NCBI GenBank assembly: GCA_028874795.1
Contig: JAPPHT010000019.1
Location: forward strand, 1-32,805
Direction of reading: 5' to 3'
DNA: 32,805 nt
Source of the DNA: Chloroflexota bacterium
Lineage (GTDB): Bacteria; Chloroflexota; Dehalococcoidia; Lucifugimonadales; Australimonadaceae
Part shown: one piece after another, positions 732-5,857 of the stretch
Layout of the letters: the number at the start of each line of letters is the position of its first letter
How positions within the stretch are numbered: the first letter of the stretch is position 1
Translations under genes and position numbers: made by a program
Notes under the pieces: generated by a model
The model's input: only the letters and a program-made list of their open reading frames with translations
Told to the model about the DNA's origin: nothing
Databases searched by the model: none

Positions 732-2063
732 ATGAGATGCTTCTCGCTAACGGCGCGGCGAGTTCCTGCGCTCACTGCCCTCACTCTCCTTGCACTCGTG
801 TTTGCAGGGTGTGACTCGCCCCCTCCGCCGACGTCAACGCCCGACATCGAGGCAACCGTAAATGCTGCAATCGTCGGTACGGCCACAGCAGAAGCAAGCC
901 TCCAGGCGACGATCAGCGCAGGCGTAGAGGCAACTATCGCGGCTCAGCCGACTGCGACACCAGCTCCCACACCAACGCCGACCTCGACTCCAACGCTCAC
1001 GCCAACCCCAACGCCGACGCCTACCTTGACGCCAACGCCCACGCCCAGCCCAACGGCGACCCCCACTCCGAGGCCTACACCTACACGTACGCCAACGCCT
1101 GCGCCCCGCCCAACAGCAACGCCGGTCCCTTCCGCGATGCCACCTGTGTCGACAACGCAACCACGAGGGTACTGTTCCGAGTACAAGCGATACTTGGAGC
1201 CCAATTCCTCAACCGAATGGAACGAATATGCAGCCGAGCATTATTCGATATGCTATACAACCGAGTATGCCAATGACGTTGAATCGGTGGACGAGTGGAT
1301 GGAGTACGCTATCAACCTGATGAAGGACAAGTATGGGATAACTCAACTCATCGAACCGGAAGCATCGAGGAGTGGGTCTTTTCCTCTGGCATCTGAACAG
1401 ATCCCACTCGTTACAAGCATAATGCTTCTTCCTGGACCCAATGATATGGCAGATACTGGTAATACGCGGTTCATGCTCTTTGCTTATGGTGGATTCTACA
1501 GGGGTGACCAGTGGGTAAGGGATGCGGGCATGGCAGCGATTCCGTACCTCACTCCCTCTCATTCTGACTGGGACGCCAGGCCTGCTTGGGGTGTAATGCG
1601 GCTTCCTCCGGATGACTTCCATGCAAAGAACCTGGTCCATGAGTTCACTCATGCCATCCAGCATTCCATACTCGGATACGACGACTCAGTCCCTGTTTGG
1701 GTCACTGAGGGACTGGCAGAGTACGAAGGAATGTTCAATTCAACTGAGTACAACAAGACCGTGGGGTTTGATTCGCTCGTACGGTACGTCCACGACCGAA
1801 TACCAGATCAACTAAGGTGCTGTCGGGTGCCGGGCATCAGTATCCCAACCTTTGATACGACAGACATATACTTCGGTGGTGCGTTAATTATGAAGTACCT
1901 GGCCGATACTTTTGGCGAAGATATTCACGTACGCCTGATGCACCATAGCCACCCTACCTTCGCCGAGGCACTGGCAGCCGAGTTGGAAACCGCGGGTACT
2001 ACAGTGCCGGAGACGTTCGAAGACTTGCAAAGGTGGCTCCAACAGAAGTACCGCGACCTGTGA
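732..2063 (+). CDS. secreted lipoprotein with gluzincin (HEFTH) metallopeptidase domain
   Basis: A 443-residue lipoprotein. The ATG gives a signal peptide with Arg residues, a hydrophobic core and a lipobox VFAGC (lipid Cys27), so it should be anchored outside the membrane. Residues 30-75 form an Ala-rich segment ([20 protein letters not shown]), then a Thr-Pro tandem linker runs to about 135. The C-terminal half holds HEFTH (303-307) with E326 in TEGLAEY, 18 residues after the motif, the zinc-ligand pattern of Peptidase_MA-like gluzincins; E304 would be catalytic. Substrate unknown. An in-frame TTG six bases upstream is an alternative start. The stop overlaps the GTG of the next lipoprotein, whose N-terminal segment is alike, so the two are co-translated. 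GC is lower than in the rest of the window. The peptidase fold is well supported; activity is inferred. Confidence 0.8.
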
Positions 2064-4120
2064 GGCAGCTCCACTTGCGAACACCTGTAGCACTCAGCCT
2101 ACTCGTGCTTGCGTTTGCGCTGGGGGCGTGCCAATCGGCTCCTCCCACCGCAACGCCCGATGTGGAGGCGACTGTGAGTGCAGCGGTCGCGGCCAATGCC
2201 ACAGCAGAAGCGAACGCCCAAGCGAGGATTCAAGCAGCCATAGCTGCCACGATCGCGGCCCTTCCTCCAACACCCACGCCGACTCCCCACTACACGCCGA
2301 CAGCAACGCCTACGCCTACCTCTACTCCCACACTCCCACTCACTCCCACTTTTACCCCAACATCAACGCCAACGCCAACCTCCACACCCATCGCAGGGCC
2401 GAGTCCGCATCCTCAGACTACCTTCAGCGCTGGCTACAACCTGGTATGCGCCCTACGCTCTGACGGCACGGCTGTGTGCTGGGGGCATGACAACGGCGGA
2501 GCAGCGTCCCCGCCGCCGGAGCAGTTGGTCTCCATCAGCAGCGGCGAGGCGCACACATGCGCGCTCCGGCCTGACGGCACTCCTGTCTGTTGGGGATACG
2601 AAGGACACGGCAGGTCTTCACCGCCTTGGGGCGAACGGTTCGCATCGATCAGCGCCGGCGAAGACCACACCTGTGCATTGCGGCTCGATGGCAGCGCGGT
2701 CTGCTGGGGCCGGAATGAGGACTCTGAGGCATCACCACCCGACAACGAGCGATTCGTCCAGATCGACGGCGGAGCAAATCACACATGCGGGTTACGGGCA
2801 GACGGCGCCGCGGTCTGCTGGGGTGACAATGACTACGGCGAAGCGTCCGCTCCAGCTGACCGGTTCGCGGCGATCAGCGGTGGGCGGGGGCACACGTGCG
2901 GGCTTCGGACTGACGGTACAGTCGTTTGCTGGGGCGACGATGAAGAGGGCCAGGCGTCCGCTCCGGATGATTGGTTCACGGCGATCAGCAGTGGCTACTG
3001 GCACACCTGTGCGCTGCGGAGTGACGGCAGTGCCGTTTGTTGGGGAAGCGACAGCCATGGCCAAGCGTCCGCTCCTGATGACCGGTTCGCGGCAATTAGC
3101 AGTGGCCACCTGCACACCTGTGGTCTGCGTCCAGACGGCGCTGCGGTCTGCTGGGGATGGAACCATGAAGGGCAGGCGTCTCCGCCAGTGGGCGAACGGT
3201 TCGCAGTGGGGAACGTTGAAGTAGGCTCGGCGCCGGTTCCCAAATCCACGCCTACACCCAAGCCGACCCCCACCCCATTGCCGAGTCGGGTCCGCATACT
3301 CGGACCCCTCAGCGGTGGCTATAACTTCGTATGCGCTCTACGCCCTGACGGCACGGCTGCGTGCTGGGGACGTGACGACAGCGGGGAGGCATCCCCACCG
3401 CCGGAGCAGTTGGTCTCCATCAGTACCGGCGAAGGGCACACATGTGCGCTCCGGCCTGACGGCACTCCTGTCTGTTGGGGCTACGATGGAGACGGCAGGT
3501 CTTCACCACCGGGGGACGAACGGTTCTCATCGCTCAGCGCCGGCGAAGACCACACCTGCGCATTGCGGCCCGACGGCAGCATATTCTGCTGGGGATGGAA
3601 CATGTTCGATCAGGCATCACCGCCTGAAGGCGAGCGACTGGCAAGCATCGACAGCGGCGCATATCACACGTGCGGGTTGCGAGCAAACGGCGCCGCTGTC
3701 TGCTGGGGCGATAATGAAAACGGCCAGGCGTCCGCTCCAGATGACCGCTTCGCGGCGATCAGTGGGGGGCAGCGGCACACGTGTGGGCTTCGGACGGACG
3801 ACACAGTCGTCTGCTGGGGCGACAATGAACACGGCCAAGCATCTGCTCCAGATGACCGGTTCGCGGCGATAAGCAGTGGCTACCGGCACACCTGCGCGCT
3901 GCGGAGTGACGGCAGCGCTGTTTGTTGGGGAAGTGACAGCCACGGCCAGGCATCTCCGCCGGAAGGTGGAAGTTTCGCCGTCATCAGTTGTGGTCATCGT
4001 CATACGTGTGCCTTACGGAGTGACGGCGGCGCCGTTTGTTGGGGAAGGAACAACCATGGCCAAGCGTCTCCCCCGGAGAGCGAACGTTTCGCTGTGGGCG
4101 AGGTTGCGGTTGGCGGCTAG
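2060..4120 (+). CDS. lipoprotein with fourteen RCC1-like repeats (two putative seven-bladed propellers)
   Basis: GTG at 2060 overlaps the upstream TGA by four bases and gives [15 protein letters not shown] with lipobox ALGAC (Cys24); a GTG at 2033 would add nine residues and is less likely. The product is 686 residues. Residues 25-65 repeat the [11 protein letters not shown]...ATAEA head of its neighbour, then comes a Thr-Pro linker. From residue 122 there are seven ~37-residue repeats of the form F-x-x-I-S-x-G-x-x-HTC-x-L-R-x-DG-x-x-VCWG, a second Thr-Pro linker (~395-412), and seven more repeats from 418. RCC1 repeats build seven-bladed beta-propellers, so each block fits one propeller. Nearly every blade has two Cys (HTC and VCWG) that could form a disulfide outside the cell. 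Likely role: surface binding, possibly with the co-encoded peptidase. This is inference; no ligand can be named. Confidence 0.85.
2423..4107 (+). repeat. tandem RCC1-coding repeats, duplicated seven-repeat block
   Basis: About 110-base coding units occur seven times from 2423 and seven times from 3311. Unit n of block 1 resembles unit n of block 2 most closely (for example both second units encode LVSIS[15 protein letters not shown]), so a whole seven-unit block was duplicated rather than single units. The linker between the blocks is Thr-Pro rich. Confidence 0.85.
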
Positions 4121-4293: not shown

Positions 4294-4755
4294 ATGGCGG
4301 ACGAGCAACGACGGAGGAGCGACTACGCGCCCACGGTGCGCCCGCGGGCCGCGCGGCAGGACGGGCTGCGCCGCTATACGCCCGGCTACCTGATGGACCT
4401 GTCCGACACGCAGACGATGTTCTACAACGACTCGGCCCGCAACACCGACCGGCGCACCCTGGTGAGCCCCAGGCAGGGCAAGCGGCTGCGCCTCATCAAT
4501 CTCACCGTCTACCAGCCGACGTCCGACAACCCGCACTTCTGCGAGGTCTACTTCGGAAAGGGGAGCACCATCGCGTCGTCTCCGCGCAGGGCCGTCGGCT
4601 ACGTGCGCGTGCCGGACCACGGCACCGGCTCGACCCGCACCTGGGGACGGGGCGCGGGCCCGGCGGGCGAGCGGAACGAACCGCTGAGCTTCCGGTGGGT
4701 CACCCGGCCCACCACGTCCCACAAGTTCATCGTCGAATACACGGAGGAGCGTTAG
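4294..4755 (+). CDS. hypothetical protein, first gene of phage-like island
   Basis: A 153-residue soluble protein with an excellent ribosome site (GGAAGGAGGAGCG before the ATG). I do not recognise its family. Residues 1-30 are rich in Arg and Asp and probably disordered. The rest alternates short hydrophobic strands (KRLRLINLTVY, CEVYFGKG, HKFIVEYTEE), suggesting a beta-sandwich. It ends two bases before the start of a probable head-tail connector gene, so a virion structural role, such as a decoration or tail-associated protein, is inferred from context only. No signal peptide or membrane segment. Confidence 0.6.
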   Translation: MADEQRRRSDYAPTVRPRAARQDGLRRYTPGYLMDLSDTQTMFYNDSARNTDRRTLVSPRQGKRLRLINLTVYQPTSDNPHFCEVYFGKGSTIASSPRRAVGYVRVPDHGTGSTRTWGRGAGPAGERNEPLSFRWVTRPTTSHKFIVEYTEER

Positions 4756-4757
4756 CC

Positions 4758-5573
4758 ATGGAAGCATACCGGTCGTTGTACGGGGACCTCACGAAACTGA
4801 AGGACGCGTCGCTGCTGGACAACCCGGCGGGCGGCACCGGCGCGGACCGCGCACTGTTCAGCCTGCTGCTCGCCACGTCGGAGGCGGTCGACCGTCACTG
4901 CAACCGTCATTTCTACGCGCTGACCGAGACGCGCTGGTTCGACGGCCCCGGCGAGGCCGTGCTTCCGCTGCCTGACGTCATCGCGGTCTCGTCGCTGCGG
5001 TCGGACGACGACGAGAGCGGCCACTACCGGACGGAGTGGTCGCGATCGGAGTACCGGTTGCTGCCGCTGAATGCCTCACCGGAGGAGCACTGGGGCAGGC
5101 CGCACAACGCGCTGCGGGTGCGCGGCAATGGCCCCCGGCAGCGGTTCGAGCGCGGGCCCGCCCGCTACGAAGTGCGCGGCAGGTGGGGGTTCGGCGAGCG
5201 GCTGGAGTACGCCGGCGCGCGGCTGCGCAGCACCACCTCCGAGACGACGACGTCGCTGGACGTGAGCAGCACCGTCAACCTCGCGGTCGGGCAGACGATT
5301 GCCGCGGGGGCGGAGCGGATGCTCGTGCGCGCCCTCTCCACCAACCGCTTGACGGTGACGCGGGGGCTGAACGGCACGTCCCCCCAACAGCACGCCCTCA
5401 ACGCGACGCTCTCTGTCGTGCGATGGCCCGCGCCGGTCGAGCGGGCGGCGCTGATCAATGCGGCACGGATGTGGACGCGCGCACCCGCGTTCGAGCCCTT
5501 CTACGTCGACGCGGACCTGGACACGGACGTGCGCCTGCTGCTGGAGCCCTACCGCCTGGGAGGTGTTGCATGA
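4758..5573 (+). CDS. probable phage head-tail connector (gp6-like) protein
   Basis: A 271-residue protein. Its N-terminus (LYGDLTKLKDASLLDN...LLLATSEAVDRHCNRHFY, given here in parts) and C-terminus (RAALINAARMWTRAPA, then DVRLLLEPYR) match the pattern of gp6-like head-tail connectors of tailed phages, where helices pack into a ring below the portal. The middle (about 75-225) is beta-rich and longer than in minimal connectors: it has a strand-rich insert with TTTSLDVSSTVNLAVGQTI and a TVTRGLNGTSPQQHA segment like those in phage adsorption proteins. Start ATG follows the previous stop by two bases, and its stop overlaps the next ATG (ATGA). No portal, capsid or terminase is nearby. Assignment is by pattern; moderate confidence. 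Confidence 0.55.
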   Translation: MEAYRSLYGDLTKLKDASLLDNPAGGTGADRALFSLLLATSEAVDRHCNRHFYALTETRWFDGPGEAVLPLPDVIAVSSLRSDDDESGHYRTEWSRSEYRLLPLNASPEEHWGRPHNALRVRGNGPRQRFERGPARYEVRGRWGFGERLEYAGARLRSTTSETTTSLDVSSTVNLAVGQTIAAGAERMLVRALSTNRLTVTRGLNGTSPQQHALNATLSVVRWPAPVERAALINAARMWTRAPAFEPFYVDADLDTDVRLLLEPYRLGGVA

Positions 5574-5857
5574 GCACAGTGTTGACGCAGAAGGAGCGGC
5601 TCGCCGCGCTGGAGGCGGAGAACGAAGCGCACACCCGCGAGCACGAGCTCACCGACCGCGTCTGGTCGGCCAAGCTCGACGCCATCGACGCGCGCCTCAA
5701 GGGCATCGAGCGCTTCCTGCTCGACGCGCCGTCGCATGCTTCGGACGCCTACGAGGGCTGGCGCCTGCACCGCCGCGACCTGATGATCATCAGCGGCAGC
5801 GCGGGCATCACGTCCCTCGTCTGGCTCTTCGTGGAGATCGGCCTGAGGATCGTCTAA
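5570..5857 (+). CDS. small coiled-coil protein with C-terminal TM segment (XhlA/holin-like layout)
   Basis: A 95-residue protein whose ATG overlaps the previous stop by four bases (ATGA). Residues 8-50 are charged with a heptad pattern (LAALEAENEAH..., IDARLKGIERFLL), a likely coiled coil. Residues 72-93 (LMIISGSAGITSLVWLFVEI) form one membrane helix. Phage XhlA-type and some holin-accessory proteins have this order, so a lysis or membrane-anchoring role in the phage-like island is a reasonable guess. No enzymatic motif. The true gene is in the frame given here; a longer open frame running in from 5036 is only an overlap with the connector gene. Confidence 0.6.
   Translation: MSTVLTQKERLAALEAENEAHTREHELTDRVWSAKLDAIDARLKGIERFLLDAPSHASDAYEGWRLHRRDLMIISGSAGITSLVWLFVEIGLRIV

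Follow-up and report, generated by a model that had tools for sequence, protein, structure and literature searches.

Two overlapping genes for stalked lipoproteins, a putative gluzincin-like metallopeptidase and a double RCC1-type propeller, were found at positions 732-4120 (+ strand) of a contig from the SAR202 group of Chloroflexota, and both ORFs were confirmed. The pair is best explained as a stalked surface protease in which the propeller would serve as the binding subunit, with a predicted ligand and a predicted peptidase activity; the probability of this reading was set at about 0.5. The same two parts are fused in sister genomes, which indicates that the peptidase and the propeller probably work together. 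The window, i.e. the whole stretch of 32,805 nucleotides that was analysed, is contig 17 of a 3.33 Mb, 97% complete genome (G000).

The gene pair and its products

The determined features of the pair are the following.

732-2063, + strand: stalked lipoprotein with a putative gluzincin-like metallopeptidase domain (ORF, lipobox, Thr-Pro stalk, HEFTH + 17 residues + EGLAEYE)
813-941, + strand: peptidase head segment after the lipobox Cys, with ATIAA (generic head of the order's stalked lipoproteins)
1167-2060, + strand: peptidase domain of 298 aa, from alignment (HEFTH at protein residues 303-307)
2060-2063, + strand: GTGA start/stop overlap of both genes (ATGA in the syntenic G002 locus)
2060-4120, + strand: stalked lipoprotein of 686 aa with two seven-repeat RCC1/crinkly-type propellers (Pfam RCC1_2)
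2147-2269, + strand: head segment of the propeller protein after the lipobox Cys, with AATIAALPP, from the sequence
2420-3232, + strand: propeller 1, repeats 1-7, each C(X9)CWG (repeat comparison)
3233-3304, + strand: Thr-Pro linker joining propellers 1 and 2, from the sequence
3305-4117, + strand: propeller 2, repeats 8-14, 77% identical to propeller 1 (block comparison)

The peptidase gene runs from ATG at 732 to a stop codon at 2061-2063 and encodes 443 aa. The propeller gene starts with GTG at 2060 and ends at 4120. The longest possible ORF would begin at 2033; the start at 2060 was preferred because a signal peptide is obtained from it and because ATG stands there in the sister locus. The GTGA overlap read in the earlier note was confirmed at 2060-2063, and the junction of the syntenic G002 locus, CCTATGAG, contains an ATGA overlap. 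By inspection of the sequence, signal peptides were recognised in both proteins and the lipoboxes were assigned as FAGC in the peptidase, which is slightly atypical with F at -3, and LGAC in the propeller protein. The Thr/Pro stalk of the peptidase is ~75 aa long. The lipobox, similar head and Thr-Pro stalk claimed earlier for both proteins were all recovered from the sequence, and the lipobox together with the stalk predicts that both are exposed on the cell surface.

The zinc peptidase motif HEFTH...E, also claimed earlier, was located as HEFTH, 17 residues and EGLAEYE. HExxH with a downstream glutamate, as in gluzincins, is therefore present, and HEFTH and EGLAEYE, with the metal-site residues, are invariant or nearly so in the relatives; the stretches invariant across the alignment are HEFTH, EG.AEYEG and GFDSL.RY. 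Peptidase_M9 and Peptidase_MA_2 of Pfam matched the correct region weakly and under the curated cut-offs. The protein shares HExxH and the downstream E in EGxAEY with the Peptidase MA/gluzincin clan (Peptidase_MA_2, Peptidase_M9-like) but stays under every curated cut-off of that clan. It is classed as a divergent HExxH gluzincin-like protein of putative family and is predicted to be enzymatically active. Relatives with 57-62% identity were detected in three of the five sister genomes of the genus and none in the other two. The named records with relatives are the MAGs SAR202 cluster bacterium bin16, Chloroflexi SB0664_bin_11 and Chloroflexi APA_bin_2, some of which (SAR202 bin16 and the SB0664 bin) presumably come from sponge studies. 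The search of 400 genomes of the phylum at E 1e-6 matched the window's own genome only. No convincing relative was obtained from the PDB by sequence, no relative from the phage collection and no match from the defence-system library. The AlphaFold model of the domain, built on a 4-row alignment, was of low confidence (mean pLDDT 48).

In the propeller protein, Pfam RCC1_2 matched 14 stretches (E 1.4e-123), far over the cut-off. The two seven-repeat RCC1-like blocks with paired cysteines described in the earlier note were reproduced as 7+7 repeats, that is, seven RCC1 repeats per propeller as in the RCC1/BLIP-II superfamily; the spacing is C(X9)CWG in each of the 14 and C(X10)CWG in none. Repeats k and k+7 are 64-82% identical and the whole blocks 77%, which shows that one propeller was duplicated whole. 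The plan of seven repeats, Thr-Pro linker and seven repeats was found also in G000:C45, G004:C465, G003:C16 and G001:C69. The paired cysteines would form disulphides bracing the propellers.

The best PDB relatives by sequence were the moss CR4 ectodomain 7a0k (E 6e-33) and BLIP-II 1jtd (E 8e-27). The BLIP-II propeller binds its protein target. It is a secreted bacterial seven-bladed propeller of RCC1 type, homologous by sequence, but it is a single, free propeller that inhibits class A beta-lactamases. The CR4/ACR4 ectodomains of plant receptor kinases (7a0k, 7a0j) are also extracellular seven-repeat RCC1-type propellers with two cysteines and CWG in each repeat. The CR4 repeats are reported to read C(X10)CWG, with disulphides likely inside each blade (PMC4617170), whereas the spacing in the window is C(X9)CWG, and the propellers are thus crinkly-like and not members of the CR4 family. 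In contrast to CR4, the window's protein has neither a kinase nor a TNFR domain by Pfam and is a bacterial stalked lipoprotein with tandem propellers. Paired cysteines are reported to be absent from the modelling templates, including BLIP-II (PMC4617170). BLIP-II is an enzyme inhibitor (PMC9218822) whose fold the propellers here probably share.

The heads of the two proteins are related beyond chance, as a search with the propeller protein's 45-aa head retrieved the peptidase head at E 5e-5 with 66% identity. The earlier proposal that the head may be a localisation or pairing module was not supported, since the same motif and Thr-Pro stalk stand on unrelated lipoproteins. At E 0.01, the head profile gave matches in 39 of the order's 98 genomes, and the matches examined include trypsin-like proteases and other unrelated stalked lipoproteins. 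A head that is generic in the group had been named beforehand as a refuting outcome, and generic is what the head was found to be across the order. The TPDxEATVxAA…ATIAA head was consequently rejected as a device pairing the two proteins, and its likeness in both is best read as shared cassette origin.

Fusions, a decayed pair and the variable slot

The pairing of peptidase and propeller itself, as suggested earlier, was supported by sister genomes through two fusions, a decayed pair and sister propellers. In G004:C108, one protein of 642 aa combines an EF-hand-like N-terminus (below the Pfam cut-off), seven RCC1 repeats, a Thr-Pro linker and a peptidase domain of the window's type, with 57% identity to the window's own. 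A second, frameshifted copy of the propeller-peptidase fusion was found in G002:C31. A tree computed from 45 propellers of the genus placed both propellers of the window and those of the two fusions in one clade of four with support of 95/89, obtained with one long-branch row left out; with this divergent trypsin-fused row included, the relation between the window and fusion propellers was not resolved. The AlphaFold model of the fused protein (7-row alignment) was of low confidence, with a mean pLDDT of 50, and Foldseek with this model retrieved CR4, UVR8 and RCC1 structures (E to 6e-9, TM 0.1-0.2), the CR4 ectodomain being the best.

The locus G002:C32 is syntenic with the window, with 85.8% DNA identity across 1.7 kb downstream. 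Its propeller gene has shrunk to the first and last codons, ATGAGACGGCTCCACTTG...GGCGGCTAG, leaving an ATGA-overlapped stub (MRRLHLGG), and its peptidase gene is broken by one TAG and one frameshift. Judged from these remains, the locus is an older pair that has since decayed. The fusions and the decayed pair speak for a link between the two parts. Against it speak the peptidase genes of G001:C79 and G002:C33, which have no RCC1 gene beside them and show that the pairing is not obligatory, and the two sister genomes in which the peptidase was not detected. The leader of the G001:C79 peptidase matches that of the propeller protein in 19 of 29 residues, compared with 13 of 33 for the peptidase's, and is a possible trace of recombination. 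A terminase-small-subunit-like gene (phrog_2538, E 1.6e-7; L027:850-1389) adjoins the stand-alone peptidase gene of G001.

The window's pair as a simple split of the fusion was rejected, because the propeller comes first in the fusion and the peptidase first in the window; the opposite order indicates that two arrangements of the same parts arose. Among ten fetched loci of the order's distant gluzincins (E 1e-4 to 1e-8), no nearby RCC1-type ORF was found, so that the propeller link is specific to the genus-level peptidase family.

Directly downstream of the pair lies a three-gene phage-derived cluster (4294-5854) containing a head-tail adaptor (phrog_442, E 1.4e-10) at 4758-5570, which all six genomes of the genus carry as a single copy with 72-88% identity. 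The cluster could represent a domesticated element or belong to a gene-transfer-agent-like set. The slot upstream of it varies among the sister genomes and holds the pair, its decayed counterpart, a different stalked lipoprotein, IS21-type genes (istA/istB, named by eye) or nothing evident. By comparison of the loci 732-4120, L252, L253 and L254, the slot was described as a hotspot. Upstream of the pair, a short ORF was noted at 172-397 with a partial second copy at about 551-614; we take it to resemble DUF4926 proteins.

Such a slot could by chance have united two stalked lipoproteins out of an enlarged repertoire, with leaders and stalks shuffled and no joint function. The generic heads and Thr-Pro stalks, the abundance of RCC1 lipoproteins in the genus and the other contents of the slot in sister genomes agree with this explanation. 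However, the two domain families are fused in sister genomes, where their propellers are sisters of the window's, and the GTGA/ATGA coupling is retained in two species. The chance of adjacency to an RCC1 gene was roughly estimated to be of the order of 0.5-3%. A chance association was considered rather unlikely.

RCC1 propellers and proteases across the order

Each of the genus's six genomes encodes many stalked RCC1 lipoproteins, most of which have 7 or 14 repeats, whereas a search of ten further genomes from the family at E 1e-20 gave none. With the Pfam repeat model, RCC1 was detected in 43 of the 147 genomes of the order, so the repeats are expanded in the genus and not unique to it. In the window's own genome, L097:5336-10093 contains a 1586-aa frame for a lipoprotein in which the RCC1 repeats number about 31 or more, and a close relative with about 33 repeats occurs in G003 (L154). 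Combinations of RCC1 with ankyrin repeats, a PD40 propeller and a collagen-like stretch were observed at L223:1-3054, L218:6020-8644 and L215:2831-4639.

Among the 75 RCC1 proteins scanned, six have a trypsin-like domain and one a subtilase domain, in addition to the two HExxH fusions; the loci had been chosen by high RCC1 score and are not a random sample. No other catalytic family was clearly present among them, and the DPPIV_N and pectate-lyase matches both fell in a single protein with a PD40 propeller. The fusions are distributed as follows.

Trypsin_2 fused to an RCC1 propeller: G001, G022 (3 proteins), G059, G248
Subtilase S8 fused to an RCC1 propeller: G055
Loci of the RCC1 fusions with trypsin- or subtilisin-like domains, five genomes: L228:6985-9744, L228:9933-12227, L229:3456-5987, L221:4315-6186, L247:2379-4208, L166:3230-5014, L227:2104-4728

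These fusions join a protease to the same propeller type, at either end, and several carry a lipobox and stalk. They differ from the window's pair in belonging to other protease clans and in being one polypeptide instead of two overlapping genes. With trypsin-like and HExxH profiles only, 79 of 88 RCC1 ORFs had no fused or adjacent protease, and a separate protease gene directly beside an RCC1 gene was found only in the window, besides the frameshifted G002:C31. Within the open-access papers searched, neither RCC1-protease lipoproteins nor RCC1 in SAR202 were reported.

The fusions bear also on the role of the propeller. It could inhibit or regulate the peptidase, as BLIP-II does with beta-lactamases, keeping a surface protease off or tuning its activity. 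BLIP-II, an enzyme inhibitor, is the closest bacterial solved relative by sequence, and co-translation would suit an enzyme and its inhibitor. However, such propellers are also joined permanently to the same peptidase and, at one end or the other, to proteases of trypsin-like and subtilisin-like type, which is more natural for a targeting domain; two propellers per one enzyme and two peptidase genes without an adjoining propeller likewise argue against an inhibitor, which was judged improbable.

Proposed function and meaning

In the preferred reading, that of a protease with a binding subunit, both proteins would be exported, lipidated and lifted off the membrane on their Thr-Pro stalks, and translational coupling through GTGA would give matched amounts of the two. 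The propellers may bind a protein or peptide ligand by analogy with the homologous BLIP-II, and would most likely act as an exosite (binding) subunit that brings the substrate to the peptidase. This reading predicts that the two proteins touch each other and that a ligand is bound; candidate substrates are the extracellular matrix of a host and dissolved protein. The capture-and-cleave system proposed in the earlier note is plausible: the recurrent propeller-protease fusions favour it, and its ligand and cleavage stay at the level of prediction.

A host-facing role was also considered, in which eukaryote-like propellers would bind putative ligands on sponge cell surfaces for adhesion or against phagocytosis and the peptidase would trim a receptor or free the bacterium; the SAR202 bin16 and SB0664 bin relatives are presumably sponge-derived. 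Eukaryote-like repeat proteins are reported for sponge Chloroflexi (PMC6306507), and both the sequence and the structure searches gave an extracellular domain of a plant receptor as the best relative. Against this role stands the wider occurrence of RCC1 repeats, in 43 of the order's 147 genomes; it was judged very improbable.

Extending the protease with a binding subunit to the whole group, it is tentatively proposed that SAR202 bacteria carry an undescribed class of propeller-guided surface proteases. RCC1/crinkly-type propellers would be interchangeable recognition heads for unrelated protease clans, mostly in single chains and here in a coupled two-lipoprotein pair, acting on host or seawater proteins. 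A multi-part surface protease with a binding domain is known as such; new is the combination of families, not reported together in the literature searched.

Reports describe SAR202 Chloroflexota as symbionts of sponges, with the utilisation of amino acids among their features (PMC6306507). Little is known of the way in which they acquire amino acids from their surroundings, and a propeller-guided protease, if true, would be a concrete and testable answer. It would also be a bacterial case of a plant CR4-type propeller aiming an enzyme, and would provide a group of RCC1 lipoproteins with a function.
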